Shown piece by piece: positions 1,399-18,322 of a stretch of DNA of 35,474 nucleotides. Within the stretch, counting starts at the first letter, position 1, and the number at the start of each line of letters is the position of its first letter. The notes under the pieces are model-generated. The model ran no database searches and had not been told where the DNA came from. It was given only the letters and a program-made list of their open reading frames with translations. A program made the translations under genes and the position numbers. This DNA is from an uncultured Lachnospiraceae bacterium (lineage in GTDB: Bacteria > Bacillota > Clostridia > Lachnospirales > Lachnospiraceae): the NCBI GenBank assembly GCA_946631295.1, contig CAMOZY010000022.1, forward strand, positions 1 to 35,474, in the 5' to 3' direction.

Positions 1399-1445
1399 AA
1401 AGACGCCTTTTCTGCAAGTTTACAGAAAAGACGCCTTTGCCTTTT
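1399..1445 (-). promoter_or_regulatory. ANTAR-type hairpin overlapping a terminator in the glnN leader
   Basis: On the minus strand, 1445-1426 folds into stem AAAAGGC / GTCTTTT around the six-base loop AAAGGC, with A at position 1 and G at position 4 as in ANTAR targets. The loop and 3' arm (1438-1423) can instead pair with 1414-1399 in a 16-bp terminator stem with an 8-nt loop, followed by a U-rich run at 1398-1382. The two folds exclude each other, so a protein holding the small hairpin would permit read-through into glnN. The U tract is interrupted by G and C, so termination may be incomplete. The predicted start site (about 1447) is only a few bases before the hairpin. Confidence 0.82.
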
Positions 1446-1453
1446 CAAGTGAT

Positions 1454-1482
1454 AAAATACTACTGCAAAATCATGTTGTCAA
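1454..1482 (-). promoter_or_regulatory. Sigma-A-type promoter of glnN
   Basis: TTGACA (1482-1477) and TATTTT (1459-1454) are separated by exactly 17 bp on the minus strand. The same two hexamers and spacing occur before gltB (16295-16267), which supports a shared promoter class. The start site is predicted near 1447. Confidence 0.8.
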
Positions 1483-1526
1483 TATACAAGAAGCGATTTC
1501 TTCCAGAATCGATACATCACTTCGTA

Positions 1527-2504
1527 TCATCTTACTCTTTCCTGGGTAAGATCAAGAATAAATGTACTTCCTTTTCCGATTACGCTCTCCGCACTGATCC
1601 TGATGGAAAGAAGGTCTGCCGCCTTTTTGGCAAGGTAAAGTCCGAGTCCGCTTGATCTATTCTCAATCCGTCCGTTCGTTCCCGTATATCCCTTTTCAAA
1701 GATCCTGGGAAGATCCTCCGGTGCAATCCCGATACCCGTGTCGGCAACTCTCAGGACAGAATCTTTTACTGATATCGTGACAGAACCCGCAGAGGTATAT
1801 TTGACCGCATTTGACAGAAGCTGATCAAGGATACAGATGAACCATTTCCTGTCGCTGACTATAGTCGCATCAGTTTTCTCATAAATCAGCTGCAGCTTCT
1901 TCTCGAAAAACTGCGGGGCAAACTTTCGTACCGATTCACAGATAAGAGTATCGAGATCATATTCACGGATAACCAGATCATTGGTACCGCTCCCGATGCG
2001 GATATACTGTAACACCATCTCAACATACTGCTCTATTCTCGACAGTTCGATCAGCAGAGCATGATGCTCCGGAGTATCATCGGAAAGCTTAAGGCGCATG
2101 ACCGCGATGGGAGTCTTGATCTGGTGAACCCACGCGGTATAATAATCGATCATATCCTGCTTATCGGAAGATTCTTCATCATAAACCTTCTCCATAAGTT
2201 CACCAAGTGCGTTTATGATCTCAATATAATCCTCCTCAGCAAGAGATTCCGCATCCGGAAGATTTCTCCATTCGGATGCCACTGAGGAAAGGACTGACAT
2301 CCTCCGGTTTCTTTTTCTGTTTTCTGATATCAGATCGATGGCGAAGATCACGGCCATCACTACAAATGTCAGTATGACCGCATATATCATGGGTTCCGTA
2401 ATGATGTCATAAAGCGCAAAAATGGTAGCGTTTGCTGCGACCATCACAGCAAACACTGCCATTACTCTTATATTTTTACGGATAACTTCCTTTAAGATCT
2501 TCAT
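1527..2504 (-). CDS. BceS-like intramembrane-sensing histidine kinase
   Basis: A 325-residue sensor kinase that phosphorylates the response regulator encoded just upstream. Two hydrophobic segments lie near residues 14-32 and 39-58 with almost no extracellular loop, as in BceS-type kinases that sense through a partner ABC transporter. The H box HQIKTPIAVMRL is near residue 147, the N box LDQLLSNAVKYT near 234, and the G boxes are DTGIGIAPEDLPRIFEKG and SSGLGLYLAKKA. The ATG overlaps the regulator stop by 4 nt (ATGA), so translation is probably coupled. It is the last gene of a four-gene bce operon. I see no strong terminator between it and the glnN promoter, so some read-through into glnN is possible. 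Confidence 0.93.
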   Translation of the reverse strand: MKILKEVIRKNIRVMAVFAVMVAANATIFALYDIITEPMIYAVILTFVVMAVIFAIDLISENRKRNRRMSVLSSVASEWRNLPDAESLAEEDYIEIINALGELMEKVYDEESSDKQDMIDYYTAWVHQIKTPIAVMRLKLSDDTPEHHALLIELSRIEQYVEMVLQYIRIGSGTNDLVIREYDLDTLICESVRKFAPQFFEKKLQLIYEKTDATIVSDRKWFICILDQLLSNAVKYTSAGSVTISVKDSVLRVADTGIGIAPEDLPRIFEKGYTGTNGRIENRSSGLGLYLAKKAADLLSIRISAESVIGKGSTFILDLTQERVR

Positions 2505-3172
2505 GATATGATGTAGCCGCTTCCGGGTCTTGTGACTATCACATTCTTCAGTCCGACTTCCTCAAGCTTCTTCCTGAGGCGTGTGACATTGACCGTCAGC
2601 GTATTTTCCTCGACAAAGCAGTTATCATCCCAAAGTCTTACCATCAGAGTATAACGGCTCACGATCCTCCCTTTGTTATCCAGAAGAGTCTGAAGGATCC
2701 TCATTTCATTTTTGGTAAGTTCTGTCCTCTTTCCTTCGAAAGTGACACTGCTGTCATTAGTGTTCAGATCGGCCCCGTGAAAATTTATCATGCCGGAACT
2801 ACCTGACAGTTCATAGGAACGTCTCAGTATTGCCTGAACCTTGGCATTCAGCACCATAGGATCAACAGGCTTTGCGATAAAATCATCTCCGCCCATATTG
2901 ATCGCCATGATCAGATTCATATTATCCGATGCAGATGACAGGAAAACTATGGGAACAGTAGAGATCTTTCTTATCTCAGAAGTCCAGTAATATCCATTCT
3001 GGAAGGGAAGCATTATATCCATCAGCACAAGCTGGGGATCATATGCTCTAACTTCTCCGGTCACGTCATGAAAATCCGAAACAATGCGTGTCTCGTTGCC
3101 ATAGCATTCAAGCTGTCTGCATATTTCCTTTGCGAGCGCATGATCATCCTCAACAAGAAAGATCCTGTACAT
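2501..3172 (-). CDS. BceR-like OmpR-family response regulator
   Basis: A 223-residue DNA-binding regulator. The receiver domain (residues 1-118) has the acidic pair in MYRIFLVEDDHALA, the phosphoacceptor Asp in LVLMDIMLP near residue 52, the Thr/Ser switch in PIVFLSS and the conserved Lys in FIAKPVDP. The C-terminal winged helix (about 125-223) contains LTKNEMRILQTLLDNKG and ends VTRPGSGYIIS, typical of OmpR/PhoB proteins. It lies 15 nt after the permease gene and overlaps the kinase gene by 4 nt. It probably activates the bceAB genes in response to cell-envelope-active peptides. The inducer is inferred from family only. Confidence 0.93.
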   Translation of the reverse strand: MYRIFLVEDDHALAKEICRQLECYGNETRIVSDFHDVTGEVRAYDPQLVLMDIMLPFQNGYYWTSEIRKISTVPIVFLSSASDNMNLIMAINMGGDDFIAKPVDPMVLNAKVQAILRRSYELSGSSGMINFHGADLNTNDSSVTFEGKRTELTKNEMRILQTLLDNKGRIVSRYTLMVRLWDDNCFVEENTLTVNVTRLRKKLEEVGLKNVIVTRPGSGYIIS

Positions 3173-3187
3173 TTTATCTCCTTACGA

Positions 3188-5257
3188 TCAGTGTACTATC
3201 CTGTAATATGTTCTCGCTGTAAGCAGATATACAGCCACATAGACGACTCCGAATACAAGAAGCGTTATGATGGTGCATGTGACAAACAGAGAGGTATTGG
3301 TAAGCATCAGTATCTTCAGAAGCTTCAGAAGAATGGGAAATGCCATTATCGTATGGATCGCAGCTGTCACAAGAGGAAGAAAGAACTGGAGTATCAGCTG
3401 GCTTCCTATGGTCCTTTTTACCTCTCGCTCTTCCATACCGAGCTTCTCCATGATCTGGAATCTGCTCCTGTCCTCATAACCTTCCGATATCTGCTTGTAG
3501 TATATAATAAGGATTGTGGAAAACAAACACACAGATCCGAGAAGTATTCCGAGGAAAAGGAATGTTCCGTACATGTCGAGAACATTGTGAAGGCTCTCCC
3601 ATTTGGAATCTATCATAAAGTTGATCCCGTCCGGGAATTGTTCATTAAGCATCGCCTTTACATCACTGCTGAAGCTTTCTCCGGCCTCCGAAGATACCTC
3701 CTCACTGAAATTAAGTCCGAGCCTGCCCGCGTATTCAGAGGCATATTCGCCGTAACTTTCCCTCTGTGCCCTATAGATCTCATCCATGACTTCTTCATCT
3801 GCAACAACGATACCGATAAGATCGACAATATTGCCGTATGTTGCGGATATCGGAAAATACAATATGTTTTCCTTTACCTTATAAGTCTTTCCCGCGATAG
3901 TCAGTGTCTCCGGCACATCTCCGAAATGCTCTGCAGTTGACATTATCCTGCTGAATGCGATCTCATCCTTCTCAAGCCCGAGATCTCTTGCATCCGTCGT
4001 CACAAGCGTCTGTCCCTTTAACCTTTCATAAGTTTCCTCAGTTATAAAGATCGCACTGGTCAGTTCCGACATATCCCAGCTGCCGATCTCTTCCGCTTCA
4101 GGTTTGGTCAGTAACACGTCGTCTCTAAGCAGATATGAGACCGTGAGCATATTGGTCTTCTCCATTTCTGTTATCTCAAGACCGTTATTTTCTGCCGCTT
4201 TATAAACAATATCTGAAAGTATATCAAATGATACATGATTGACAAGTTCACCGTCTTCACTGAATGCGGAGAGATATACCTGCTTGGGATAGTTGGAATT
4301 CATTGTATCCTGAACTCCGCTGTACAGACTTACCGTAGTCGAGATCATGACCAGAACACCTGTAGCAAGGATTGCAATCGATGCAAGGCCAACAGCATTC
4401 TGCTTCATCCTGAAAAGAAGTCCTGCAACTGCAGGCATGTGATTCTTCTGATAGTAGTACTTCCTGTTTTTCTTCAGACACTTTAATACAAAAGTTGTTC
4501 CCGCAACAAAGAGACAGTATGTACCGACGATAACGAGCAGCACAGCCATAAAAAACAGCAGCAGCGCCTGTAGAGGAGCCTTGGTGGTAAGTGATATATA
4601 ATATCCGCTCCCGAGAGAGACGATCCCCATCACCAGAAGGATCCATCTTACCCTGGGCTCCCTTTCTCCGACACGCTTTCCTGCCATCAGATCGACGGGC
4701 TTCATAAAGAGGATCGATAAGCTTCCGAAGAAAAATGCCAGCATATCAAGAAACATGAATACTACGACAGGGAAGATGACTGTCCTCATATCAAGATAAT
4801 AGAATCCCGGAACTATCCCGCTATGCATCAGCCTGCAGATAAGAACTGATGATGCCTTATAGAACAGTATCCCGAACAGGATGCCGGTAACAGCAGATAC
4901 GAGGGATGTGATGACTGATTCGGCAAACAGGACCCTTATGACATGTCTTTTCTCCATTCCGAGAACATTGTAAAGTCCGTAATCACTCTTTCTGCGTTTC
5001 ATGAGAAATGAATTAACATAAAGTATCAGAATGAACGAGAGCAGACCGATAACAAATGAACCGAATGACATGAACATCTTCAGATATGATCCGCCAAGCG
5101 CATCCGCCAGCCTGTCATCATGCAGGATAGTGATCATTATGTAAAGACAGCCAAGAAGTCCGGCTTCCGCAAGGATCCTGGGAATATAGAGCTGTGTATT
5201 TTTCCTGATATTTTCGAACGCTATCTTCAGATAAAATCCTCTTTTCATCAGGGTCAC
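3188..5257 (-). CDS. BceB-like ABC transporter permease (FtsX/MacB fold)
   Basis: A 689-residue membrane protein forming the transmembrane partner of the ATPase encoded upstream. About ten hydrophobic segments are visible: one near the N-terminus, groups at about 50-250 and 285-315, and three at the C-terminus around 560-685. A large soluble region (about 320-555) lies between the seventh and eighth, the arrangement of Bce-type antimicrobial-peptide sensing and detoxification transporters. The listed start is a GTG that overlaps the ATPase stop as GTGA, with AGGAG 6 nt upstream. An ATG at 5248-5246 (MKRGFYLKIAFENIRKN) is an equally credible start. The substrate, such as bacitracin or a lantibiotic, cannot be read from the sequence. 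Confidence 0.92.
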   Translation of the reverse strand: MTLMKRGFYLKIAFENIRKNTQLYIPRILAEAGLLGCLYIMITILHDDRLADALGGSYLKMFMSFGSFVIGLLSFILILYVNSFLMKRRKSDYGLYNVLGMEKRHVIRVLFAESVITSLVSAVTGILFGILFYKASSVLICRLMHSGIVPGFYYLDMRTVIFPVVVFMFLDMLAFFFGSLSILFMKPVDLMAGKRVGEREPRVRWILLVMGIVSLGSGYYISLTTKAPLQALLLFFMAVLLVIVGTYCLFVAGTTFVLKCLKKNRKYYYQKNHMPAVAGLLFRMKQNAVGLASIAILATGVLVMISTTVSLYSGVQDTMNSNYPKQVYLSAFSEDGELVNHVSFDILSDIVYKAAENNGLEITEMEKTNMLTVSYLLRDDVLLTKPEAEEIGSWDMSELTSAIFITEETYERLKGQTLVTTDARDLGLEKDEIAFSRIMSTAEHFGDVPETLTIAGKTYKVKENILYFPISATYGNIVDLIGIVVADEEVMDEIYRAQRESYGEYASEYAGRLGLNFSEEVSSEAGESFSSDVKAMLNEQFPDGINFMIDSKWESLHNVLDMYGTFLFLGILLGSVCLFSTILIIYYKQISEGYEDRSRFQIMEKLGMEEREVKRTIGSQLILQFFLPLVTAAIHTIMAFPILLKLLKILMLTNTSLFVTCTIITLLVFGVVYVAVYLLTARTYYRIVH

Positions 5258-6009
5258 CTCTCTCTCCTGAGCATGGTGAGAGTATCCGAGATCTTCTTAT
5301 ACATCTCATCATTGTCCGACTCCCCGCGATACAGCTGGTGGAACACTACACCATCCCGTATAAAGAGTACCCTGTTTGCATGAGAGGCTGCATCTGTGGA
5401 GTGCGTTACCATAAGTATGGTCTGACCGTTTTTGTTGATCTGTGAAAATACTCGAAGCAGATCAGAGGCAGACTGTGAGTCAAGAGCTCCGGTAGGCTCA
5501 TCTGCAAGGATGAGTCTTGGCTCTGTTATAAGCGCCCTCGCTGCCGCAGCACGCTGTTTCTGACCGCCCGACACCTCGTAAGGGTACTTTTCAAGCAGAT
5601 CTTCTATACCAAGTGATACAGCGACAGACTTCAGCCTCCCCTCCATTTCCGACGGATGAACCCCGCTGAGAACCAGAGGAAGCAGAATGTTATCCTTAAG
5701 AGAGAATGTATCCAGCAGATTGAATTCCTGAAAAACAAATCCGAGATTATTTCTCCTGAATGCCGCAAGTTCTCTTTCCCTGACGGCATCCAGTCTTTTT
5801 CCATCAAGTTCAACGCTTCCGCCCGTAGGCTTATCAAGAGCGGCAAGAATATTAAGGAGAGTGGTCTTGCCTGATCCTGACTCACCCATTATCGCAACAT
5901 ATTCACCCTTTTCAACCGAGAAGGTGACTCCCTTGAGAGCCTGCACACGGGTTCCCCCGAGCCTGGAGACATATGTTTTCTTAATATCGTTTACTTTAAG
6001 CAGTTCCAT
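5254..6009 (-). CDS. BceA-like ABC transporter ATP-binding protein
   Basis: A 251-residue ATPase of the MacB/LolD/BceA class that drives the adjacent permease. It has Walker A GESGSGKTTLLN near residue 42, the Q loop in FVFQEFNLL, the signature VSGGQKQRAAAARAL near 146, Walker B RLILADEPTGALD and the switch His in MVTHSTDAA. Length and motifs are normal. It is the first gene of the bceABRS operon (6009 to 1527). The 100 bp upstream holds no consensus promoter that I can assign with confidence. A terminator at 6117-6163 separates it from the ANTAR gene. Confidence 0.95.
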   Translation of the reverse strand: MELLKVNDIKKTYVSRLGGTRVQALKGVTFSVEKGEYVAIMGESGSGKTTLLNILAALDKPTGGSVELDGKRLDAVRERELAAFRRNNLGFVFQEFNLLDTFSLKDNILLPLVLSGVHPSEMEGRLKSVAVSLGIEDLLEKYPYEVSGGQKQRAAAARALITEPRLILADEPTGALDSQSASDLLRVFSQINKNGQTILMVTHSTDAASHANRVLFIRDGVVFHQLYRGESDNDEMYKKISDTLTMLRRER

Positions 6010-6116
6010 TACATTTACCTCCGTTTCGTTTTATGCATCAAGCTTACCGAAACGGGACTTTTCCCAACATCGAATGATGTGATATCTATGTGACAATTTT
6101 GTAATATCCAATAAAA

Positions 6117-6163
6117 AAGGAGCTTCACAGGGATGACCTGACCATCCCGGATGATAACTCCTT
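6117..6163 (-). terminator. Intrinsic terminator after the ANTAR gene
   Basis: On the minus strand AAGGAG (6163-6158) pairs with CTCCTT (6122-6117), and an inner GGGATG pairs with CATCCC around a 7-nt loop. TTTTTTATT follows at 6116-6108. It closes the glnA-ANTAR transcript before the bce genes. Confidence 0.8.
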
Positions 6164-6221
6164 CAGAATAACATATTCACTTTCATGTGCAACCGTCTCA
6201 TCGCACATCATACATTAATAA

Positions 6222-6806
6222 CTATCCGTAAGTCTTGAGGATGTTCTCCGCAGTTTCCTTCTTGCTCAGGCACATATCCATGGCCTGCTTCTGGATGTAT
6301 CTGTGAGCATCCTCCTCGGTCATCCCACAGGACTTGATGAGAGCCCACTTTGCTCTGTTTACAAGCCTGATCTCCTCCATCTTATCCTCAAGAGTCATGG
6401 TCTTTTTACGGACCTTCTTAAGTCTTTCCCTGAAGCTGCACATGACACCGATGAGCTCACCGATGCGGTCGTCTTCAAGCGGTCTCATGACCACCATGAC
6501 ACCTTTAGGAGTCATCGAAGTACTTATCTCATCATACATTTCACTTCTTACGATGATCGCTGCAACACTGTCTGTCTCGGTGCATACGTCCACAGCGAAT
6601 TTTCTTCCGAAATCGTCGGGCAGAGGCGCATTGATCAGGACAAGGTCGTAATCCCTGTCTGATAATCTCCGCTGTGCCTTGGCTACGGTGTCAACAACCG
6701 TCACCGGCTCAAAGCTCCCTCCTTTGAACATGGGAAGCAGAACATTATTTATTTTTTCTGCTGCCGAAACCAGCAGCACACTGTAGACTCTCTCAGCCGG
6801 TAACAT
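6222..6806 (-). CDS. ANTAR-domain RNA-binding antiterminator with degenerate receiver domain
   Basis: A 194-residue protein with a response-regulator-like fold at residues 8-120, a charged helical linker (RKKTMTLEDKMEEIRLVNR) and a C-terminal ANTAR domain at about 135-190 (AKWALIKSCGMTEEDAHRYI followed by QAMDMCLSKKETAENIL). ANTAR proteins such as AmiR, NasR and EutV bind hairpins with A1/G4 hexaloops and prevent termination. The receiver looks unphosphorylatable: the phosphoacceptor position in LVLINAPLP is Asn, and the usual acidic pair near residue 12 is absent (LLVSAAEKIN). No kinase partner is adjacent, apart from the BceS-type kinase, which has its own regulator. It starts 31 nt after the glnA stop and probably shares the glnA transcript, so it would lie under the control of the leader it is proposed to read. 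The nitrogen role is inferred from matching hairpins before four nitrogen operons. Confidence 0.9.
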   Translation of the reverse strand: MLPAERVYSVLLVSAAEKINNVLLPMFKGGSFEPVTVVDTVAKAQRRLSDRDYDLVLINAPLPDDFGRKFAVDVCTETDSVAAIIVRSEMYDEISTSMTPKGVMVVMRPLEDDRIGELIGVMCSFRERLKKVRKKTMTLEDKMEEIRLVNRAKWALIKSCGMTEEDAHRYIQKQAMDMCLSKKETAENILKTYG

Positions 6807-6837
6807 GGATTGCCTTTCAGGTTTTTATTATTGCATA

Positions 6838-8064
6838 TCAGGCACGGACGCTGTTCTTATCAAGATATGACCTGAACAGTTCCTCAGGAAGAACCTCTTT
6901 TAACATATCGCTTGAAGAGGCAACATCGATCGCATCTTCAAGTGATGAAGGGATGGTATCGAATTTATCCAATGTGGTCCTCTCGGCACGATAGAGATTG
7001 ATCTTTGTCTCCTCGGGTGGCACAAGCCCCTGCTCTATCCCTTCAAGCCCGGCATGTATGATGAGTCCGAATGCAAGATAGGGATTAGCCATTGGATCGG
7101 GGGATCTGAGTTCCGCTCTCTTGTACTCTCCGAATGCCGCAGGAATACGTATCAGGGTTGAACGGTTTTCTCTTGCCCATGTGATAAATCCGGGTGCCTT
7201 TATTGTTCCGAGTCTGTTATATGATCCGGGTGTAGGATTGAAGAAAAGCGTCATCTCAGCAGCATGTTTAAGTATTCCGGCAATAACGGGTGCAAGATCG
7301 ACTTCCTTTCCATCCTTCTTGACGGAAAAATTGATATGCATTCCGTTGCCGGGTCTGTTCTTAACGGGCTTGGGTGAAAAGTCTACCGTCGCTCCGTTTC
7401 TGTTTGCAACAGCACTTACAACGCTTCTGAAGGTCATCGCATCATCAGCGGACTTGAGTGCATCGCAATACCTGAAGTCTATCTCATTTTGTCCGGGACC
7501 TTCTTCATGATGGGAGCTTTCGGGACTAATACCCATCTGCTCAAGGGTGATGCAGATTTCTCTTCTTATATTCTCGCCCCTGTCCTCGGGTCCGATGTCC
7601 ATGTATCCTGCTTCATCATAAGGAACCCTTGTGTTATCGCCCTCTATATCACTGCGGAAAAGATAGAATTCCTGCTCTGTTCCAAAATAGAAAGTATATC
7701 CCTTATCTTCAGCCTTTTTGACAGCATCCCTTAAGAAACGTCTGGAATCGCATTTAAAAGGTGTTCCGTCCTGCCAGGTGATATCGCAGAACATCCTCAC
7801 AACCCTTCCGTGTTCAGGTCTCCAGGGAAGTATTGCAAGTGTATCGGGATCCGGATGAAGAAACAGATCCGATGATTCAAATCCCTCAAATCCCTGTATT
7901 GACCACGCATCAATAGCTATGCCTTCGTTAAATGCCCTGTCGAGTTCAGCGGGCATAATTGAAATATTCTTAGCCTTGCCGAACACATCACAGAATGCGA
8001 GACGGATAAACTTGACATCCTCTTCCTCGACAAACTGTTTGACTTCCTCTTTCGTATAGTTCAT
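6838..8064 (-). CDS. glnA: Glutamine synthetase type I, short form
   Basis: Makes glutamine from glutamate and ammonia. At 408 residues it is shorter than the usual 440-470. Catalytic signatures are present: FCDVFGKAKN, TEQEFYLF, EGPGQNEIDFRY, NRPGNGMHINFS, TWARENRSTLIRIP and KRAELRSPDPMANPYLAFG. The length suggests the GSI-alpha class of Gram-positives, usually controlled by feedback and protein contacts rather than by adenylylation, but I cannot prove that from sequence. The ATG has AGGAGG 6 nt upstream. It is preceded by its own promoter and ANTAR-type attenuator (8105-8193) and followed by the ANTAR gene. The divergent neighbour is the GH9 gene. Two GS isozymes within 8 kb suggest different nitrogen regimes. 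Confidence 0.95.
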   Translation of the reverse strand: MNYTKEEVKQFVEEEDVKFIRLAFCDVFGKAKNISIMPAELDRAFNEGIAIDAWSIQGFEGFESSDLFLHPDPDTLAILPWRPEHGRVVRMFCDITWQDGTPFKCDSRRFLRDAVKKAEDKGYTFYFGTEQEFYLFRSDIEGDNTRVPYDEAGYMDIGPEDRGENIRREICITLEQMGISPESSHHEEGPGQNEIDFRYCDALKSADDAMTFRSVVSAVANRNGATVDFSPKPVKNRPGNGMHINFSVKKDGKEVDLAPVIAGILKHAAEMTLFFNPTPGSYNRLGTIKAPGFITWARENRSTLIRIPAAFGEYKRAELRSPDPMANPYLAFGLIIHAGLEGIEQGLVPPEETKINLYRAERTTLDKFDTIPSSLEDAIDVASSSDMLKEVLPEELFRSYLDKNSVRA

Positions 8065-8104
8065 AGATCCTCCTAAAGCTCAAAGCCCCCCGATTAATAA
8101 AAAA

Positions 8105-8158
8105 GCGCCCATTTCACCAAAGACTTCTGTCTTTATGAAATGAACGCCATTGCTCACT
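8105..8158 (-). promoter_or_regulatory. ANTAR-type hairpin overlapping a terminator in the glnA leader
   Basis: On the minus strand 8158-8139 folds as AGTGAGC / GTTCATT around the hexaloop AATGGC (A1, G4). The 3' half of that loop and the 3' arm form the 5' arm of a longer terminator (8147-8105), in which GCGTTCATTTCA pairs with TGAAATGGGCGC and AAAGAC pairs with GTCTTT. TTTTTTATT follows at 8104-8096. Only one fold can form at a time. The hairpin begins within a base or two of the predicted start site. Confidence 0.85.
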
Positions 8159-8163
8159 TAATC

Positions 8164-8193
8164 TTTATACAACATGCTTTTTTCCTTTGTCAA
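8164..8193 (-). promoter_or_regulatory. Sigma-A-type promoter of glnA
   Basis: TTGACA (8193-8188) and TATAAA (8169-8164) are 18 bp apart on the minus strand. GTATAA one base upstream would give 17. The start site falls near 8157-8159. Confidence 0.75.
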
Positions 8194-8232
8194 ATCCTTT
8201 TTTTCTTTACGGCGCCTGACACCCTTAATAAT

Positions 8233-8252: not shown

Positions 8253-8317
8253 CATGTCAAAAATCGGTTATATATTGCCAAATATAATGATGTAACGGGG
8301 AAAACCTGATGATACCA

Positions 8318-10133: not shown

Positions 10134-10142
10134 TATTAATTC

Positions 10143-10162: not shown

Positions 10163-10165
10163 CTG

Positions 10166-11629
10166 TTAGTTATTTCTGTAGCCCATGAGGTATTCGTCCA
10201 CCTCAGCAGCTGCGGCTCTTCCCTCGGCCAGTGCCCAGACGACAAGGCTCTGTCCTCTTCTCATATCTCCGGCTGCAAATACTCCGGGAACATTTGTTGA
10301 ATACTTTCCCTCGGGAGTAACTACGGTTCCTCTTCCGGACAGCTCAAGTCCGAAGCTTTCGGGAAGATACTTTTCAGCTCCGATGAATCCTGCTGCGATA
10401 AGGAGCATGTCGCACTTAAGCTTCTTTTCGGTACCCTTTACCTGGATAAGCTTGCCGTTTTCAAAACCGGTTTCAACAGTTTCGATACCGGTTATCTTAC
10501 CCTTTGACTGTATTACCTTCTTAACCGTTGTCTTAAATACTCTGGGATCTGATCCGAATACCTCGGCTGCTTCTACATGACCATAATCTGTGCGAAGAGT
10601 CTTGGGCCATTCGGGCCATGGGTTATTGGCCGCTCTTTCCACAGGAGGCTTGGGCATCATCTCAAGTGCCGTAACAGACTTGCATCCCATTCTGATAACG
10701 GTACCGATACAGTCATTACCTGTATCTCCGCCGCCCACAATAACTACATCCTTACCCTTTGCATCATAGTCCTTGGAAAGTTTCTTAATACCAAGTACAT
10801 TTCTGGTAGCCTGAGTGAGGAAGTCAACGGCAAAATAAACTCCGCCTGCACCTTCTATGCCATCACAAGCAAGTGCTCTGGGCTGCTTGGATCCGCAGCA
10901 AAGTACGACCGCATCATATTCCTTCTGAAGATCTGCAAGCTTTACATCCTTACCGATATTGACGCCTGTCTTAAATACTATTCCCTCTTCCTCCATAAGC
11001 TTCTGTCTTCTGGCTATAACCTGCTTATCGAGTTTCATATTGGGAATACCATACATAAGAAGTCCGCCGATACGGTCATCTCTTTCATATACGGTGACAG
11101 CATGTCCGCGTCTTCTGAGTGCATCAGCTGCGGACAATCCGGAAGGACCGCTTCCTATCACGGCAACCTTCTTGCCGCTTTCAGAAACAGGGGGCTTAGC
11201 TGTCATATAGCCCTCTTTATATCCCTTTTCTATCAGATATAATTCATTATCATGAATTGTGACAGGATCGTCATATTGACCGCATATACATGCCTTCTCG
11301 CAAAGTGCGGGACATACTCTTCCGGTGAATTCCGGGAATCTGTTGGTCTTAAGCAGTCTTGCAAGGGCATGTTCATCCTCTCCCTTGTAGATTGCATCAT
11401 TCCATTCCGGGATCAGATTGTGAAGAGGACATCCTACAACCATTCCGCTTAAGCTCATTGCCGACTGACAGAACGGAACTCCGCAGTTCATGCATCTTGC
11501 AGCCTGACATCTTCTCGCTTCCTCAGACTGAAAAGTATGAAACTCCTTGTAGCCCTTTATCCTTTCCTTTGCGGGAACTTCTTTGTTCTCTGCTCTTTCA
11601 TATTCAAGAAATCCGGTTTGTTTACCCAT
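10166..11629 (-). CDS. gltD: Glutamate synthase (NADPH) small subunit
   Basis: Passes electrons from NADPH through FAD and 4Fe-4S clusters to the large subunit. The 487-residue protein has the N-terminal cluster motif CMNCGVPFCQ and a second Cys set in GRVCPALCEKACICGQ, the FAD site GSGPSGLSAADALRRRGH, the NADPH site VIVGGGDTGNDCIG and the C-terminal GVFAAGDMRRGQSLVVWAL. The start chosen is MGKQTG, because GGGAGG lies 6 nt upstream. A longer reading would overlap gltB. The gap to the gltB stop is 14 nt, so it is cotranscribed with gltB and controlled by the attenuator before gltB. Confidence 0.96.
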   Translation of the reverse strand: MGKQTGFLEYERAENKEVPAKERIKGYKEFHTFQSEEARRCQAARCMNCGVPFCQSAMSLSGMVVGCPLHNLIPEWNDAIYKGEDEHALARLLKTNRFPEFTGRVCPALCEKACICGQYDDPVTIHDNELYLIEKGYKEGYMTAKPPVSESGKKVAVIGSGPSGLSAADALRRRGHAVTVYERDDRIGGLLMYGIPNMKLDKQVIARRQKLMEEEGIVFKTGVNIGKDVKLADLQKEYDAVVLCCGSKQPRALACDGIEGAGGVYFAVDFLTQATRNVLGIKKLSKDYDAKGKDVVIVGGGDTGNDCIGTVIRMGCKSVTALEMMPKPPVERAANNPWPEWPKTLRTDYGHVEAAEVFGSDPRVFKTTVKKVIQSKGKITGIETVETGFENGKLIQVKGTEKKLKCDMLLIAAGFIGAEKYLPESFGLELSGRGTVVTPEGKYSTNVPGVFAAGDMRRGQSLVVWALAEGRAAAAEVDEYLMGYRNN

Positions 11630-11643
11630 GTTATCCTCCCGCA

Positions 11644-14600
11644 TCAAACCGCTGTTCCGGTAATCTCTTTAAATGCTTCAAGCTCTGCGCTTTCTCTTGA
11701 GATGCCCTGCTCTTCGTACTTGGCGATTGTTTTGATCATTCTGTGATAATCTCTTGCAATGACCTTCTTGAAGCTGAGGATCTCTTCATCGAAGTTATCA
11801 AGTATTGACTTGCCGAGTTCGGAATCAGTAGCCTTTACATAGTCCTCAAGGATAGACTTGAGTTCTTCGATATCATACTTCTCTGTAACCTCTTCAAGTT
11901 CTACCATGTCCTTATTGACCTTGCGGTACAGACTGTGATCTCTGTCAAGAACAAAAGCGATACCGCCGCTCATACCTGCTGCAAAGTTCTTGCCAACGCT
12001 TCCGAGTATCACCGCTCTTCCGCCGGTCATATACTCAAGTCCGTGATCTCCGCAGCCTTCCGCAACAGCCGTCGCACCGGAATTTCTTACACAGAATCTC
12101 TCACCTGCGATACCGGTGATATATGCTTTTCCGGAGGTTGCTCCGTAAAGTGCAACGTTACCGACGATGATATTCTCTGATGCCTTGAATACGCTGCCCT
12201 CGGGAGGAGTAAGGATAAGTCTTCCTCCTGACAGCCCCTTTCCGAAGCCATCGTTTGCATCGCCCGAAAGTTTTATGGTAAGTCCGTGAGGAATAAATGC
12301 ACCGAAGGACTGACCACCGCCGCCTTCACAGTTAACGATAAATCTGTCTTCTGAAAGTTCGCTGCACTTGCTTCCATATTTTCTAACTATCTCAGATCCC
12401 AGAATGGTTCCGAGGCTTCTGTCTGTCGAACTTACATTAAGTGAAACTGATGAAGTTTTGGTCTTACTCTTTACGGCTTTATCGAACCATGGAAGAAGGA
12501 TCTTCTCATCAAGTGTCTTTTCAAGTCCGAAATCAAAGCTCTGCTTAGGATCGAATCTGTTCTCCTTAACAAGTGCATAATCACTCTTAAGTATCTCGGA
12601 GAATGAAATGGTGCATGCTTCACTTTGCTTAAACTCTGCTCTCTTGCGCAGGCAGTCGCTTCTTCCGATCATCTCATCAACGGTCTTAAATCCGAGTTCT
12701 GCCATGATCTCTCTGAGCTGCATTGCGACATATGTCATGAAATTGATGATGTGCTCGGGCTTTCCGGCAAATCTCTTCCTGAGTATCTCATTCTGAGTTG
12801 CGATTCCTACAGGACATGTATCCTTGGAGCAGACTCTCATCATCATACATCCGAGTGACACAAGCGGTGCGGTTGCAAAGCCGAATTCCTCGGCGCCGAG
12901 AAGAGCAGCTATTGCAACATCTCTTCCTGTCATGAGCTTACCGTCTGTCTCAATCCTTACCTTCTGTCTTAATCCGCTTTCGATAAGTGCATGATGTGTT
13001 TCTGCAACTCCGAGTTCCCAGGGAAGCCCTGCAGAGTGAACCGAGCTGAAAGGTGCTGCACCTGTTCCTCCGTCATAACCGGAGATAAGTACTACCTGTG
13101 CACCTGCCTTTGCAACACCGGATGCAATTGTTCCTACACCCGCCTCAGATACAAGCTTTACAGATATTCTTGCATTTCTGTTCGCATTCTTAAGGTCATA
13201 GATAAGCTGTGCAAGATCCTCGATCGAATAGATATCATGATGAGGAGGAGGAGAAATAAGCTGTACACCGGGAGTTGAGCATCTTGTCTTGGCAACCCAT
13301 GGATATACCTTCCTCGCAGGAAGATTTCCTCCCTCACCGGGCTTTGCACCCTGTGCCATCTTGATCTGTATCTCCGAAGCACTGAGCAGATATTCTTCCG
13401 TAACACCGAATCTTCCGGATGCCACCTGCTTTACAGCACTGTTTTTATCCGTACCGAAACGGTCAGAAGCCTCTCCGCCCTCACCGGTATTGGAACGTCC
13501 GCCAAGTGTGTTCATTGCCTTGGCGATGGTCTCATGAGCTTCTCTTGAAAGTGAACCGTAGCTCATGGCACCAACCTGGAATCTCTTGACGATCTCCGAA
13601 ACAGGCTCAACCTTATCAAGAGGAACCGGCTTGCCTGCAGGAACAAATTCAAGTAATCCTCTCAGTGTATGAGGATGATCAGGATCGTCAACAAGTGCCG
13701 TATATTCCTTGAACTTGTCGTAGCTTCCCATACGTACGGCCTGCTGGAGAAGTACGATGGTCTTGGGACTGTAAAGATGATCTTCCTTGTTGTCACCGCT
13801 TCTTAAGTTATGGAAGCCTGTGCTGTCGAGAACGGGATCTATGGGAAGTCCCATGGGATCGAATGCCCTGTCATGTCTCGACGCAATACCTTCCTCGATC
13901 TCCCTGACACCGATACCTCCGACTCTGCTGGTAACGCCGGTAAAGAATCTGTCAATGACATCATCTGAAAGGCCTATTGCTTCGAATATCCTTGCAGACT
14001 GATATGACTGGATCGTCGAAATACCCATCTTCGCGGCAATCTTTACAACACCGTTAAGCAGTGCCTTATCGTAATCATCGATTGCAGTATGCAGATCCTT
14101 ATCAAGGAGTCCGAGAGTAATGAGCTCTCCTATGCACTCATGCGCAAGATAGGGATCGACAGCTCTGGCACCAAAGCCCAGAACACATGCCATCTGATGT
14201 ACATCCCTGATCTCGCCGCTCTCAAGTATAAGTGACACAGCTGTCCTTTTTTTTGTGTTGACAAGATGCTGCTCAACAGCGGATACGGCCAGCAGTGCAG
14301 GGATGGGAACATGGTTCTCATCCACACCGCGGTCAGAGAGGATTATTATGTTTGCTCCGCCTGAAACTGCTCTGTCAACAGACAGGTAGAGCTGTTCAAC
14401 TGCTTTAAGAAGTGAAGTATGTTTGTAATAAAGAAGAGATACTGTCTCTGTCTTGAAGCCCGGTCTCTTCATGGAACGGATCTTCATAAGATCAACGCCG
14501 GTAAGTACAGGATTGTTAACTTCAAGAACAGTGCAGTTGTCACTCTTTTCACTTAACAGATCTCCGTCGGAACCGATGTACACAGTTGTATCGGTTACGA

Positions 14601-16173
14601 TCTTCTCTCTGAGTGAATCGATGGGAGGATTGGTAACCTGCGCAAACTGCTGCTGGAAGAATCTGTATAGAAGAGGATGATTATCCGAAAGCGCTCCGAG
14701 AGGAACATCATGTCCCATCGATACAGTGGGCTCTGCTCCGTTCATGGAAGCTTCAAGGATATATGTTCTTACCTCTTCATAGCTGTAACCGAATACCTTG
14801 TAAAGTCTGTCTCTTTCAGGCTGCGTAGATACAGGAACCTGATGATTCGGTATGGTAAGGTCCTTAAGTCTGATAAGGTGTGAATCAAGCCACTCACCGT
14901 AAGGATGCTTGGATGCGTAGGTTTCCTTACACTCTTCATCCGAAATGATCCTCTTCTGATGAGTATCGACAAGAAGCATTCTTCCCGGTGTAAGTCTTGA
15001 TTTTTTAAGGATCTTCTCGGGGGCGATATCAAGAACACCGACCTCAGAAGAAAGGATCAGTCTGTTGTCATCCGTAATATAGTATCTGGAAGGCCTGAGG
15101 CCGTTACGGTCAAGAGTTGCCCCGAACATCTCACCATCGGTGAAAAGAATGGCTGCAGGTCCGTCCCAGGGCTCCATCATCGTTGCATAATAATGATAGA
15201 AATCCTTCTTATTTTCACTCATAAAACGGTTGTGCTTCCAGGGCTCGGGAATCAGAGCCATCATTGCAAGAGGAAGATCCATGCCGTTCATATAAAGAAA
15301 CTCAAGAGTGTTATCAAGCATTGCGGAATCTGATCCGCTTGCAGAGATAACGGGATAGATCTTAGCCCTGTCACTTTCGAGAAGTTTGGAATGCATGGTC
15401 TCTTCACGCGCAAGCATTCTGTCGGAGTTACCTCTTATTGTATTGATCTCTCCGTTATGAGCGATGAATCTGTACGGATGTGCTCTCTCCCAGCTGGGAA
15501 GAGTATTGGTGGAGAATCTTGAATGTACAAGAGCGATGGCGGTCATATAATCCTTGCTCTGAAGATCGTCGTAAAATCTTCTGAGCTGTCCTACAAGGAA
15601 CATTCCCTTATATACGATCGTTCTTGATGAAAGAGAACAGATATATGTATCGTCGGAGCTCTGCTCAAATTCTCTTCTTACTACATATAATCTTCTGTCG
15701 AAGTCAGCACCTCTGTTAAGGCCTTCAGGTCTCTTAAGGAAGCACTGCCAGATAGAAGGCTGGCAGTTACGTGCTCTCTCGCCAAGGATTTCGGGATGGA
15801 CGGGAACCTCTCTCCATCCGATGACTTCCATCCCTTCCTTATCGGCAATAACTTCAAAGAGTCTCTTTGCAAATGTTGCCTTGAGATTATCCTGAGGAAG
15901 GAAGAACATTCCGATTCCGTAATCTCCCGCAGAGAGTTTTCCTGCCTTCATCTTTTTAAGGACTGATGAAAAGAAAGAGTGAGATATCTGGAGAAGGATA
16001 CCGACACCGTCTCCAACCTTGCCGCTTGCATCCTTTCCTGCTCTGTGCTCAAGCTTTTCAACTATTGTCAGTGCATCGTCCATAACGGAATATTCGGGTA
16101 TTCCGTCGATCTTGACAACAGCACCTATACCGCACGCATCATGTTCTCTGTCGTATGAAAGATTACCGTTCAT
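11644..16173 (-). CDS. gltB: Glutamate synthase (NADPH) large subunit
   Basis: Makes two glutamates from glutamine and 2-oxoglutarate. At 1509 residues it is full length. After a 13-residue propeptide the catalytic Cys14 lies in HDACGIGAVV, the class II glutamine amidotransferase N-terminus. The central and FMN domains follow (for example AKPGEGGNLPARKVYPWVAK and ISGYDGGTGAAPFSS). The 3Fe-4S motif is CMMMRVCSKDTCPVG near residue 1110, and the C-terminal GXGXG beta-helix contains GDANDGFGKGLSGGRL. A GAGAGGG ribosome site precedes the ATG. It leads a gltBD operon with its own promoter and ANTAR-type attenuator (16213-16295). Confidence 0.97.
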   Translation of the reverse strand: MNGNLSYDREHDACGIGAVVKIDGIPEYSVMDDALTIVEKLEHRAGKDASGKVGDGVGILLQISHSFFSSVLKKMKAGKLSAGDYGIGMFFLPQDNLKATFAKRLFEVIADKEGMEVIGWREVPVHPEILGERARNCQPSIWQCFLKRPEGLNRGADFDRRLYVVRREFEQSSDDTYICSLSSRTIVYKGMFLVGQLRRFYDDLQSKDYMTAIALVHSRFSTNTLPSWERAHPYRFIAHNGEINTIRGNSDRMLAREETMHSKLLESDRAKIYPVISASGSDSAMLDNTLEFLYMNGMDLPLAMMALIPEPWKHNRFMSENKKDFYHYYATMMEPWDGPAAILFTDGEMFGATLDRNGLRPSRYYITDDNRLILSSEVGVLDIAPEKILKKSRLTPGRMLLVDTHQKRIISDEECKETYASKHPYGEWLDSHLIRLKDLTIPNHQVPVSTQPERDRLYKVFGYSYEEVRTYILEASMNGAEPTVSMGHDVPLGALSDNHPLLYRFFQQQFAQVTNPPIDSLREKIVTDTTVYIGSDGDLLSEKSDNCTVLEVNNPVLTGVDLMKIRSMKRPGFKTETVSLLYYKHTSLLKAVEQLYLSVDRAVSGGANIIILSDRGVDENHVPIPALLAVSAVEQHLVNTKKRTAVSLILESGEIRDVHQMACVLGFGARAVDPYLAHECIGELITLGLLDKDLHTAIDDYDKALLNGVVKIAAKMGISTIQSYQSARIFEAIGLSDDVIDRFFTGVTSRVGGIGVREIEEGIASRHDRAFDPMGLPIDPVLDSTGFHNLRSGDNKEDHLYSPKTIVLLQQAVRMGSYDKFKEYTALVDDPDHPHTLRGLLEFVPAGKPVPLDKVEPVSEIVKRFQVGAMSYGSLSREAHETIAKAMNTLGGRSNTGEGGEASDRFGTDKNSAVKQVASGRFGVTEEYLLSASEIQIKMAQGAKPGEGGNLPARKVYPWVAKTRCSTPGVQLISPPPHHDIYSIEDLAQLIYDLKNANRNARISVKLVSEAGVGTIASGVAKAGAQVVLISGYDGGTGAAPFSSVHSAGLPWELGVAETHHALIESGLRQKVRIETDGKLMTGRDVAIAALLGAEEFGFATAPLVSLGCMMMRVCSKDTCPVGIATQNEILRKRFAGKPEHIINFMTYVAMQLREIMAELGFKTVDEMIGRSDCLRKRAEFKQSEACTISFSEILKSDYALVKENRFDPKQSFDFGLEKTLDEKILLPWFDKAVKSKTKTSSVSLNVSSTDRSLGTILGSEIVRKYGSKCSELSEDRFIVNCEGGGGQSFGAFIPHGLTIKLSGDANDGFGKGLSGGRLILTPPEGSVFKASENIIVGNVALYGATSGKAYITGIAGERFCVRNSGATAVAEGCGDHGLEYMTGGRAVILGSVGKNFAAGMSGGIAFVLDRDHSLYRKVNKDMVELEEVTEKYDIEELKSILEDYVKATDSELGKSILDNFDEEILSFKKVIARDYHRMIKTIAKYEEQGISRESAELEAFKEITGTAV

Positions 16174-16212
16174 ATCATTTCCCTCTCAGATCATGTGGAT
16201 AAAAAATAAGAA

Positions 16213-16258
16213 ACGGCGCCTCTAATGTCATTTAAACATTAGAGACGCCGTTGCCTCT
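16213..16258 (-). promoter_or_regulatory. ANTAR-type hairpin overlapping a terminator in the gltB leader
   Basis: On the minus strand 16258-16241 folds as AGAGGC / GTCTCT around the hexaloop AACGGC (A1, G4). The loop and 3' arm are shared with a 16-bp terminator stem (16251-16236 pairing with 16228-16213, 7-nt loop) followed by TTCTTATTTTTT (16212-16201). This is the cleanest example of the alternative folds in the window. The predicted start site, about 16260, is next to the hairpin base. Confidence 0.88.
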
Positions 16259-16266
16259 TGCAGAAT

Positions 16267-16295
16267 AAAATAATCTTTTTAAATAGCAATGTCAA
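16267..16295 (-). promoter_or_regulatory. Sigma-A-type promoter of gltBD
   Basis: TTGACA (16295-16290) and TATTTT (16272-16267) have a 17-bp spacer, the same hexamers and spacing as the glnN promoter. It lies just downstream of the amt terminator. Confidence 0.8.
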
Positions 16296-16307
16296 GAAAT
16301 TTTTTAC

Positions 16308-16359
16308 AAAAAGATTGACGGTTCCTTCGTTCACAGAATTTGTGATCGAAAGAACCGTC
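16308..16359 (-). terminator. Intrinsic terminator after amt
   Basis: On the minus strand GACGGTTC plus TTCG (16359-16347) pair with CGAA plus GAACCGTC (16329-16317), with one mismatch in the stem, followed by AATCTTTTT (16316-16308). It separates amt from the gltB promoter. Confidence 0.85.
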
Positions 16360-16380
16360 ACCTTTTCTATCTATAATGTA

Positions 16381-18141
16381 TTATTCAACATCCTGTAATG
16401 CTGCATAATCCTCTTCGCCTGTTCTGATCTTAACAACTCTGCTGACAGGATATACGAAGATCTTACCATCTCCGATCTTGCCGGTATAAAGTGTCTTCTT
16501 GGCAGTTTCAATAACAGAATCTACAGGAATCTTACTTACAACAACTTCAAGCTTGATCTTGGGAAGGAGCGTCATATCCATCTCAACTCCTCTGTACATC
16601 TCGCCGGCACCCTTCTGGATACCGCATCCGGTAACCTGTGTAACGGTGATACCTGTAACACCGAGATCGTTGAGTGCTCTCTTAATACTGTCATATCTTG
16701 AAAGTTTGGTAATGATGACAACCTTGTGCATTCCCGTATCAGCTACAACGCCTGCAGCTCTCATATCCTTCTCTGTATCAACTACAGGTACGGATGCCTT
16801 CTTCTGTGCGTCGCTTGCCTTGTCATAATCAGTGGTTCCGATACTGGTGTTCTCGTTCTCACTCATATATGCGCCGGTAAGATCTACAATACTGAAGCCT
16901 GCATATGCTGATGCAAGACCATGCTCTTTGATATCGAGGCCTTCAATTTCCTCCTCCTCAGAAACACGAAGTCCGAAGATAGCCTTAATGATAGAGAATA
17001 CTATTATCATTCCTACTACAGTCCATGCTGCAACTGCTGCAAATCCAAGGAGCTGTTTTCCGAGAAGTTCAAATCCGCCGCCGTAGAAAAGTCCGCAAAG
17101 TTCGCTGTCGGGCGCATCAGGTGTTGCAAAGAGACCAACTGCGATGGTACCCCAGATACCGTTCATCATATGTACAGCAACTGCACCGACGGGATCATCG
17201 ATGTGAGCCTTATAATCAAGGAACCATACACCAAAGCAGACAAGAAGACCTGCTACAGCACCGATAACGATGGCACCGAATGCATCAGTTACATCACAGG
17301 GAGCGGTGATTGCTACAAGACCTGCAAGTGAAGCGTTCATGCACATTGACACATCGGGCTTGCCATACTTGATACATGTGAAGATCATACATACTACAGT
17401 TGCGATTGAAGGAGCGATTGTTGTGGTTACGAATACGGATGCAAGCTGATCTACCGAAGTACATGCAGCACCGTTGAATCCGTACCAGCCGAGCCAGAGG
17501 ATAAATACACCGAGTGCACCGATTACGATGTTATGTCCGGGGAATGCATTAACCTTTGTTATCTTACCCTTTTCGTCCTTTTCAAACTTTCCGATTCGGG
17601 GACCGACCATCTTGGCACCGATAAGAGCTGAGATACCGCCTACCATGTGGATTGCACAGGATCCTGCGAAATCGTGGAATCCGAGCTGAGCGAGCCAGCC
17701 GCCGCCCCAGATCCAGTGTGCTTCGATGGGATAGATAAGTGCTGAGATAACTGCGGAATATACACAGTAGCTCAGGAACTTGGTTCTTTCAGCCATAGCA
17801 CCGGATACGATGGTAGCTGTTGTTGCACAGAACACAAGATTGAATACGAAGTTGGACCAGTCAAAATCTGCATATGATGTGAAGATATCAAAACCGGGCT
17901 TTCCGATAAATCCCATCACATCTTCACCAAGCAGCAGTCCGAAGCCGATCAGTATGAATACACAGCAGCCTATACAGAAGTCCATAAGGTTCTTCATCAG
18001 GATATTACCGGCGTTCTTTGCTCTCGTAAAACCGGTCTCCACCATAGCGAATCCGGCCTGCATCCAGAACACCAATGCTGCGCCGATCAGAAACCATACT
18101 GCAAAAAGTTTACCGTCGACAATACTCAATAATTCTTCCAT
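16381..18141 (-). CDS. amt: Ammonium transporter with a C-terminal fused PII signalling domain
   Basis: A 586-residue fusion. Residues 1 to about 410 form an Amt/MEP channel with about 11 membrane segments (FWMQAGFAMVETGFTRAKNA, DFAGSCAIHMVGG, GFNGAACTSVDQL, AVHMMNGIWGTIAVGLFA). A linker follows, and residues 471-586 are a complete PII (GlnB/GlnK) domain from MHKVVIITKLSRYDSIKRAL through GCGIQKGAGEMYRGVEMDM to TGKIGDGKIFVYPVSRVVKI. In PII numbering Tyr46 is kept but position 51, the uridylylated Tyr in enterobacteria, is Met. PII normally blocks Amt as a separate trimer; here blocker and channel would be tethered, responding to ATP/ADP and 2-oxoglutarate. The start MEELLS has GAGGAGG 9 nt upstream; the longer frame from 18210 has no ribosome site and would enter the leader. 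Two serial attenuators control it (18178-18277). Confidence 0.95.
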   Translation of the reverse strand: MEELLSIVDGKLFAVWFLIGAALVFWMQAGFAMVETGFTRAKNAGNILMKNLMDFCIGCCVFILIGFGLLLGEDVMGFIGKPGFDIFTSYADFDWSNFVFNLVFCATTATIVSGAMAERTKFLSYCVYSAVISALIYPIEAHWIWGGGWLAQLGFHDFAGSCAIHMVGGISALIGAKMVGPRIGKFEKDEKGKITKVNAFPGHNIVIGALGVFILWLGWYGFNGAACTSVDQLASVFVTTTIAPSIATVVCMIFTCIKYGKPDVSMCMNASLAGLVAITAPCDVTDAFGAIVIGAVAGLLVCFGVWFLDYKAHIDDPVGAVAVHMMNGIWGTIAVGLFATPDAPDSELCGLFYGGGFELLGKQLLGFAAVAAWTVVGMIIVFSIIKAIFGLRVSEEEEIEGLDIKEHGLASAYAGFSIVDLTGAYMSENENTSIGTTDYDKASDAQKKASVPVVDTEKDMRAAGVVADTGMHKVVIITKLSRYDSIKRALNDLGVTGITVTQVTGCGIQKGAGEMYRGVEMDMTLLPKIKLEVVVSKIPVDSVIETAKKTLYTGKIGDGKIFVYPVSRVVKIRTGEEDYAALQDVE

Positions 18142-18177
18142 AAAGTTTTTCCTCCTCAGGATTAATATATTAAAACA

Positions 18178-18224
18178 AAAGGCACTTCGAACTTCGCGGT
18201 GAAAGTTCAAAGCGCCTTTGCCTT
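18178..18224 (-). promoter_or_regulatory. amt leader, second ANTAR-type hairpin and terminator
   Basis: On the minus strand 18224-18209 folds as AAGGC / GCTTT around the hexaloop AAAGGC. Its loop and 3' arm begin a terminator (18219-18178) in which AAAGGC/GCCTTT, CTT/AAG and GAACTT/AAGTTC pair, followed by a short U run (TGTTTT). It lies between the first attenuator and the amt ribosome site, so RNA polymerase must pass both. Confidence 0.82.
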
Positions 18225-18235
18225 AAACAAAAAAT

Positions 18236-18277
18236 GCGTTCCGGAAATTTCTAAAAATTCCGGAACGCCCTTGCTCC
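18236..18277 (-). promoter_or_regulatory. amt leader, first ANTAR-type hairpin and terminator
   Basis: On the minus strand 18277-18262 folds as GGAGC / GTTCC around the hexaloop AAGGGC (A1, G4). The competing terminator pairs GCGTTCCGGAA (18268-18258) with TTCCGGAACGC (18246-18236) and is followed by ATTTTTTG (18235-18228). The hairpin starts about 10 nt after the predicted transcription start. Confidence 0.84.
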
Positions 18278-18293
18278 ATGTTTTATGTGTGTG

Positions 18294-18322
18294 ATATTAC
18301 TCCGCTAAAAAACATTTGTCAA
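18294..18322 (-). promoter_or_regulatory. Sigma-A-type promoter of amt
   Basis: TTGACA (18322-18317) and TAATAT (18299-18294) are spaced 17 bp apart on the minus strand, and the predicted start is near 18287. A very A/T-rich stretch lies upstream (18323-18353) and could act as an UP element. Confidence 0.8.

Follow-up and report, generated by a model that had tools for sequence, protein, structure and literature searches.

Antitermination by ANTAR proteins is a known mode of control of nitrogen genes. ANTAR targets have been described before genes for PII, ammonium transporters (amt), glutamate synthase, and glutamine synthetase, and the target is defined as a dual hairpin of which the first hairpin is needed in vivo (Ramesh 2012, PMC3369931). 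Later work found that an EutV dimer engages one hexaloop and redefined the minimal motif as a single hexaloop; two hexaloops were still required for antitermination, and bioinformatics on single-hexaloop motifs was called for (Walshe 2022, PMC8934654). An actinobacterial search also demanded two stems (PMC8164766). NitR of Clostridium saccharobutylicum (Stutz 2007) is said to antiterminate and induce the glutamine synthetase/glutamate synthase (GS/GOGAT) genes on nitrogen limitation (PMC6316151). Mention has also been made of nitR in C. acetobutylicum and of a C. thermocellum GOGAT cluster that contains an ANTAR gene (PMC4676874). Here, we describe a candidate single-hexaloop system in a contig of an uncultured Lachnospiraceae bacterium (CAMOZY010000022.1; the contig in its full length of 35,474 nucleotides is called the window), where leader hairpins with the loop AANGGC precede four nitrogen operons clustered with a nitR-like gene.

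As in C. saccharobutylicum, an ANTAR protein is linked to GS/GOGAT genes; unlike the system described there, the window has located single-hexaloop elements on four operons of one cluster. The elements share with the dual-hexaloop RNAs of EutV, NasR, and AmiR a hexaloop with A at position 1 and G at position 4, a hairpin that excludes an intrinsic terminator, and an association with nitrogen genes, but they lack the upstream (P1) hexaloop, and their hairpin lies at the predicted 5' end of the RNA. ANTAR control of nitrogen genes is thus already known, and what appears to be different is the single-hexaloop architecture together with a pseudo-receiver regulator. Among the papers listed by searches of the open-access literature, which did not extend to the supplementary tables of Ramesh 2012, none describes an ANTAR terminator with a single hexaloop or the occurrence of this element in Lachnospiraceae. 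An earlier reading of the window from its letters alone (the original prediction) had supposed that the nitrogen link might not be wholly new, which the published targets bear out (PMC3369931), and that the organization is distinct, which holds for reasons it did not name, namely, one hexaloop and a pseudo-receiver regulator. It did not mention the single-hairpin nature of the elements; published ANTAR targets are double. We consider it very probable that the four window operons form a NitR regulon under transcription antitermination at the AANGGC hairpins.

Leader elements of the window

The predicted leader features are as follows.

1454 to 1482, minus strand: glnN promoter, TTGACA-17-TATTTT
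1425 to 1446, minus strand: glnN antiterminator hairpin, loop AAAGGC (motif match and folding)
1395 to 1442, minus strand: glnN leader terminator (simple terminator scan; covariance model R1, 41.9 bits, training member)
8164 to 8193, minus strand: glnA promoter, TTGACA-18-TATAAA
8138 to 8159, minus strand: glnA antiterminator hairpin, loop AATGGC (motif match and folding)
8099 to 8151, minus strand: glnA leader terminator, excluding the hairpin (RNAfold; R1, 33.3 bits, training member; absent from the simple scan)
16267 to 16295, minus strand: gltB promoter, TTGACA-17-TATTTT
16241 to 16258, minus strand: gltB antiterminator hairpin, loop AACGGC (motif match and folding)
16212 to 16252, minus strand: gltB leader terminator (simple terminator scan; R1, 42.2 bits, training member)
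18294 to 18322, minus strand: amt promoter, TTGACA-17-TAATAT
18261 to 18278, minus strand: amt antiterminator hairpin 1, loop AAGGGC (motif match and folding)
18231 to 18272, minus strand: amt terminator 1 (RNAfold; R1, 34.5 bits, training member; absent from the simple scan)
18205 to 18228, minus strand: amt antiterminator hairpin 2, loop AAAGGC (motif match and folding)
18178 to 18219, minus strand: amt terminator 2 (simple terminator scan; R1, 40.9 bits, training member)

All five hexaloops have A at position 1 and G at position 4 and are closed by a C-G pair. The motif GCAANGGCGY matches the window five times, each time at one of these hairpins, where 0.31 matches are expected, and none of 100 shuffles of the window reached five. 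RNAfold places a long terminator stem over each hairpin, with energies of -29 to -45 kcal/mol for the folded leader stretches (that of amt 1 takes in part of the second hairpin). Because the 5' arm of the terminator contains the loop and the 3' arm of the hairpin, the two predicted folds are mutually exclusive. The five hairpins with their loops and C-G closing pairs, the overlap with a terminator 5' arm in every leader, and an ANTAR protein encoded within the cluster (6222 to 6806, minus strand) had all been claimed in the original prediction and were recovered here, the overlap at five of five hairpins by RNAfold and at three of five (glnN, gltB, and amt 2) by a simple terminator scan, whose total over positions 1 to 20,000 (17 versus 15.3 in shuffles) was no excess. 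The glnA and amt 1 terminators are supported by RNAfold and by model R1, the training of which included all five elements. No Rfam family reached its gathering score in the window, and three sub-threshold matches to microRNA and small nucleolar RNA models were discarded. The distance from the end of the -10 box to the GC of the hairpin is 13, 10, 12, and 19 nt for glnN, glnA, gltB, and amt 1, respectively. Tandem elements ahead of one gene were observed not only before amt (18173 to 18278) but also in two other loci, before gltB (L117, 4442 to 4523) and before asnB (L057, 16516 to 16619).

The motif was then counted in 41 loci, comprising the window and 40 loci around nitR genes that were the better scoring or better assembled of 131 and thus not a random sample. 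Together with a terminator, it occurred 45 times (132 raw motif matches), compared with 1 to 9 times for ten control loops (29 to 131 raw matches); nine of the 45 were judged false by eye and dropped. When the 256 possible loops that fit CxxnyyYGY were compared in 39 glnA leaders, AAnGG was found in 21 and the runner-up in 4, with 0.6 expected; on the opposite strand, AAnGG was found in 1.

Covariation of hairpin and terminator

Thirty-one of the 36 remaining elements, chosen by motif and terminator energy with manual removal, were aligned; the five excluded were mostly long-looped. This choice fixed the loop, the pair that closes it, and the presence of a pyrimidine in pair 2 and left the other stem letters free. 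In the alignment, 82% of the hairpin cells are paired versus 39 to 54% when slid, and 93% of the terminator cells versus 41 to 66%. A held-out set was obtained from 111 elements by removing those used in training, sequence duplicates, and those that lacked the core, which left 71 distinct elements outside the alignment; the search model that had found them contained stem letters and not hairpin pairs. Here, pairs 1 to 5 are formed in 71, 71, 70, 62, and 43 of the 71 elements, while for pairs 2 to 5 the shuffled means are 57.8, 58.9, 52.0, and 34.0, and the maxima of 1,000 shuffles are 64, 64, 59, and 43. G-U pairs account for 8 elements at pair 2 and 6 at pair 3. Since pairs 6 and 7 form at chance level in the same 71 elements, the hairpin would consist of a stem of about 4 to 5 bp and the hexaloop. 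The predicted short stem closing the hexaloop covaries, in agreement with the earlier claim that pairing is kept while the stem letters differ.

A single hexaloop at the predicted 5' end of the RNA

Family-level elements scoring at least 30 bits, the best scoring among the matches listed plus those of the nitR-centered loci, gave a set of 106, all from a model trained on the AANGGC-type loop. Their loops are AAAGGC (71), AAGGGC (13), AATGGC (10), AAAGGT (5), AACGGC (3), AAGGGT (1), and AAAAGC (1), and two elements have no loop core. A promoter score of at least 11 was reached by 71 of the 106 versus 1.6% of shuffles, and the spacing from the -10 box to the motif is narrow (median, 14 nt). If transcription is assumed to start seven bases downstream of the -10 box, the window RNAs would begin at or slightly before the hairpin, and in the 106 elements the predicted start precedes the loop-closing C by at most 12 nt in 91, by 13 to 20 nt in 9, and by over 20 nt in 6. 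A candidate upstream P1 hexaloop, with A at position 1 and G at position 4, falls inside the predicted transcript of only one of the 106 elements, and such hexaloops are not in excess in the 45 nt upstream of the elements (4 versus 4.6 in shuffles).

As a positive control, a dual-hexaloop scan was applied to eight loci at the better-scoring ANTAR gene of order-level genomes with two ANTAR matches. It returned four raw hits, of which two (L349 and L350) are canonical and adjoin eutA/eutB, near eutP (Pfam); the ANTAR proteins of both loci retain the receiver aspartates, and Response_reg is recognized in that of L350 (E = 1.3e-27). Applied to the 41 NitR loci, the same scan returned five raw hits, none convincing; only the one leader hit (L032) was looked into, and its first hairpin falls within the promoter.

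At the order level, a universal absence of upstream hairpins had to be rejected, as a second hairpin, its loop not of the ANTAR type, lies upstream of some elements. By eye, these upstream loops outside the family are tetraloops in three loci (L274, L277, and L278) and GACAAA and AACTAA in two more (L174 and L175). Several order-level elements also have no clear promoter directly upstream. For both reasons, the single-hexaloop claim, which comes from sequence comparison, is firm only at the level of the family Lachnospiraceae. The predicted element is outside the dual-hexaloop definition, although it appears to work like an ANTAR system.

The putative regulator NitR

The ANTAR open reading frame directly follows glnA in 39 of the 40 family loci; the fortieth (L056) ends at a contig edge and shows no glnA. 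All 40 aligned NitR proteins have the ANTAR domain, and in none of them, the window protein included, is the phospho-acceptor Asp of the receiver present (Gly in 29, Asn in 6, Ser in 4, and Ala in 1). Response_reg is recognized in 11 of the 40 (E ≤ 0.01). Judged by these residues, the regulator is a pseudo-receiver ANTAR protein, unlike EutV, in which the phospho-aspartate is present. Its sequence matches are to a putative antiterminator (1s8n, E = 4e-10), AmiR (5.6e-5), EutV (6wsh, 5.1e-4), and a nitrate regulatory protein (4akk, 0.0076). The EutV residues that contact G4 of the loop include K149, E160, and Y164, and M172 acts as a loop plug (PMC8934654). The equivalents of K149, E160, and M172 are invariant in all 40 NitR proteins, and at the position of Y164 every one of them has His, Phe, or Tyr. 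RNA-bound EutV offers a further parallel, as a single hexaloop is contacted per dimer (PMC8934654), and the NitR regulon is a candidate natural single-hexaloop case.

Because the phospho-acceptor is absent, NitR probably receives its signal through a partner protein. Glutamine synthetase, encoded by the adjoining gene, or PII would be our guess for this partner. AmiR of Pseudomonas is likewise an ANTAR protein and, in our alignment, has His at the position of EutV Y164. It has a pseudo-receiver and is signaled to through its ligand-binding partner, AmiC.

Co-occurrence of the element and the ANTAR gene

Of 150 family genomes, 131 have ANTAR genes (128 with one match each and 3 with two), and 121 have R1 matches (E ≤ 0.001). 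The original prediction had expected hairpin and ANTAR gene to go together across genomes, and they do: the element is present in 118 of the 131 genomes with an ANTAR gene versus 3 of the 19 without one (Fisher's test, 3.6e-11), and the difference remains when the 22 training genomes are removed (96/109 versus 3/19; 5.0e-10). An order sample of 146 genomes from at least 25 families, five of which genomes are shared with the family sample, gave 67 of 93 versus 6 of 53 (6.4e-13), the six ANTAR-less exceptions being weak (E = 1.2e-4 to 7.0e-4). Since the genomes are related, these P values overstate independence. Missed elements are also to be expected, as scoring in both searches was restricted to the best candidates per genome and the filters were strict.

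Genes of the window and the predicted regulon

The nitrogen genes of the window are as follows.

2 to 1360, minus strand: glnN, type III glutamine synthetase, truncated by the contig end (GSIII_N, E = 1.2e-82; Gln-synt_C, E = 2.1e-20)
6222 to 6806, minus strand: nitR-like gene, 194 amino acids, degenerate receiver and C-terminal ANTAR domain (PF03861, E = 3.2e-15)
6838 to 8064, minus strand: glnA, glutamine synthetase (top NCBIfam match is type I, under its cut-off)
10166 to 11647, minus strand: gltD, glutamate synthase small subunit
11644 to 16173, minus strand: gltB, glutamate synthase large subunit
16381 to 18141, minus strand: amt-PII, ammonium transporter and PII domain fused in one open reading frame (PF00909 and PF00543)

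For amt-PII, the domain scan used the longer frame 16381 to 18210, and the start codon was assigned by eye; a comparable amt-PII-like protein has been mentioned for C. thermocellum (PMC4676874). The nitR-like gene is the single ANTAR match in the source genome, which is 91% complete. Genes for a histidine kinase, an OmpR-type regulator, an FtsX-like permease, and an ABC ATPase lie between nitR and glnN (1527 to 6009, minus strand), a distance that in a relative of the same genus (L048) is only about 1.1 kb from nitR to the glnN element. Divergent from glnA is a gene for a family 9 glycosyl hydrolase (cellulase-like; 8398 to 10011, plus strand).

The genes next after the 106 elements, of which representatives were named by Pfam and NCBIfam, are glnN (25), glnA (19), amt/PII (11), asnB (8), gltB (8), purF (7), pyrG (3), and carA (2), so that these eight core genes total 83; by origin, they follow 58 of the 78 hit-centered and 25 of the 28 nitR-centered elements. 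The others are genes for a circularly permuted ATP-grasp protein (5), an 856-amino-acid PPDK_N protein (4), and an ABC ATPase (2) and purA (1), with seven next genes unassigned and four elements at a contig end. One of the unassigned (L051_3013) resembles GltB, and another belongs to a match (G000:C28:14997) that abuts an apparent tRNA 3' end by eye and was rejected as a false positive. The source genome has two further elements outside the window, at 3385 to 3431 and 7356 to 7404 of one locus (L110, plus strand): one of 33 bits before the 856-amino-acid PPDK_N protein and, at the other site, a weak one of 24 bits before a solute-binding protein. Counting from the gene side in 30 loci each, an element precedes pyrG in 6 (one weak, 25 bits) and the control groEL in none, with one 21-bit match within the groEL loci. 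Uniform control of purF, which is above the cut-off in 37 of 40 genomes, was rejected, as among 30 loci just 1 has an element immediately ahead of purF, and a second element is about 950 nt upstream. From these next-gene and gene-side counts, the core of the predicted regulon is nitrogen assimilation, and its glutamine-spending branch (asnB, purF, pyrG, and carA) is optional and patchy.

Proposed mechanism and alternative explanations

In the mechanism that we propose, RNA polymerase would start at a strong promoter and transcribe the short AANGGC hairpin, of about 4 to 6 bp, first. By default, the hairpin loop and 3' arm would pair with downstream RNA to form the intrinsic terminator, and transcription would stop. 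Under nitrogen (glutamine) shortage, NitR would bind the hexaloop through its ANTAR domain and hold the hairpin, and polymerase would read through. Unlike in the targets of EutV, one hexaloop appears to suffice. The exclusive folds, the loop, the position of the promoter, the co-occurrence, the gene set, and the glnA-nitR linkage all point to this scheme, and we infer from them binding of the hairpins by this NitR, an activating effect of the binding, and nitrogen or glutamine as the signal. Activation under nitrogen shortage is favored by the gene set and by what is described for the known NitR (PMC6316151).

Several observations weigh against antitermination by NitR at these hairpins. The exact motif is missing from 18 of the 39 glnA leaders (in two of these, L063 and L071, it is found instead before the upstream gltB), 13 of the 131 ANTAR genomes have no R1 match, and 3 of the 19 ANTAR-less genomes have one. 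One of these three ANTAR-less genomes (G114) carries its match before glnN (E = 9.8e-6), with G at loop position 1. Of the EutV contacts, R142 varies in NitR, R168 is Gln in 36 of 40, and R175 and R177 are mostly changed. Moreover, EutV needs its upstream hexaloop in vivo (PMC3369931), so that a single hexaloop acting alone is a candidate mechanism here. By eye, three glnA leaders (L043, L047, and L052) apparently retain the terminator with a degenerate loop, e.g., GAGGGGCG replacing CAAGGGCG. The G114 element (L112, 3238 to 3283, minus strand) may reflect decay or another reader.

The conserved sequence after the promoter could be a DNA operator of an ordinary transcription factor, with the terminators incidental, and its narrow distance from the -10 box is often seen with operators. 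We regard this as highly improbable, as the stem letters change while pairing, including the G-U pairs, is kept, a covarying terminator overlaps the motif, the motif is strand specific in the glnA leaders (21 of 39 sense versus 1 antisense), and it tracks the gene for an RNA-binding protein. That the terminators are passive and set basal expression, the loop being kept only as part of their stem, is similarly hard to credit: in 30 of the 31 aligned terminators, both loop adenines are indeed paired to the U-tract, but the 5' arm of the hairpin, dispensable for the modeled terminator, pairs at positions 2 to 4 in 71, 70, and 62 of the 71 held-out elements. Variation in the inner stem and at the third loop position also goes with changes in the partners, while positions 4 and 5 remain G, an argument that is partly circular because the aligned elements were selected by a motif having G there.

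NitR might instead have the opposite polarity, favoring the terminator or repressing under nitrogen excess; this seems very unlikely given that antitermination is the role described for EutV, AmiR, and NasR (PMC3369931) and that NitR of C. saccharobutylicum is said to induce the GS/GOGAT genes on nitrogen limitation (PMC6316151). Equally little probability attaches to the view that a riboswitch with a small-molecule ligand, or an antiterminator protein other than NitR, acts on the leaders, with the ANTAR co-occurrence due to shared ancestry. Kinship among the genomes does inflate the co-occurrence counts; however, the co-occurrence persists in the order sample, one short hairpin is too small for a usual aptamer, and Rfam offers only the three weaker matches mentioned above.

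Implications

Beyond the window, we give about an even chance to a broader reading, in which the Lachnospiraceae, and probably much of the order, have a second architectural class of ANTAR control. Here, a pseudo-receiver NitR that is not controlled by phosphorylation, usually the sole ANTAR protein of the genome, would read a single hexaloop located right where the transcript begins, a position at which no recruitment hairpin would be needed. It would coordinate the supply of glutamine (glnA, glnN, gltB, amt, and PII) and, in a subset of genomes, its consumption (asnB, purF, pyrG, and carA), with glutamine synthetase as the likely sensor.

The role of single-hexaloop sites was left open by Walshe 2022, and the NitR regulon may offer natural elements of about 45 to 65 nt in a one-protein system. 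With an ANTAR gene in 131 of the 150 sampled genomes, NitR is likely a nitrogen regulator for this family of the gut and rumen, and in some of its genomes it would link nitrogen assimilation to the glutamine-consuming synthesis of nucleotides and asparagine.

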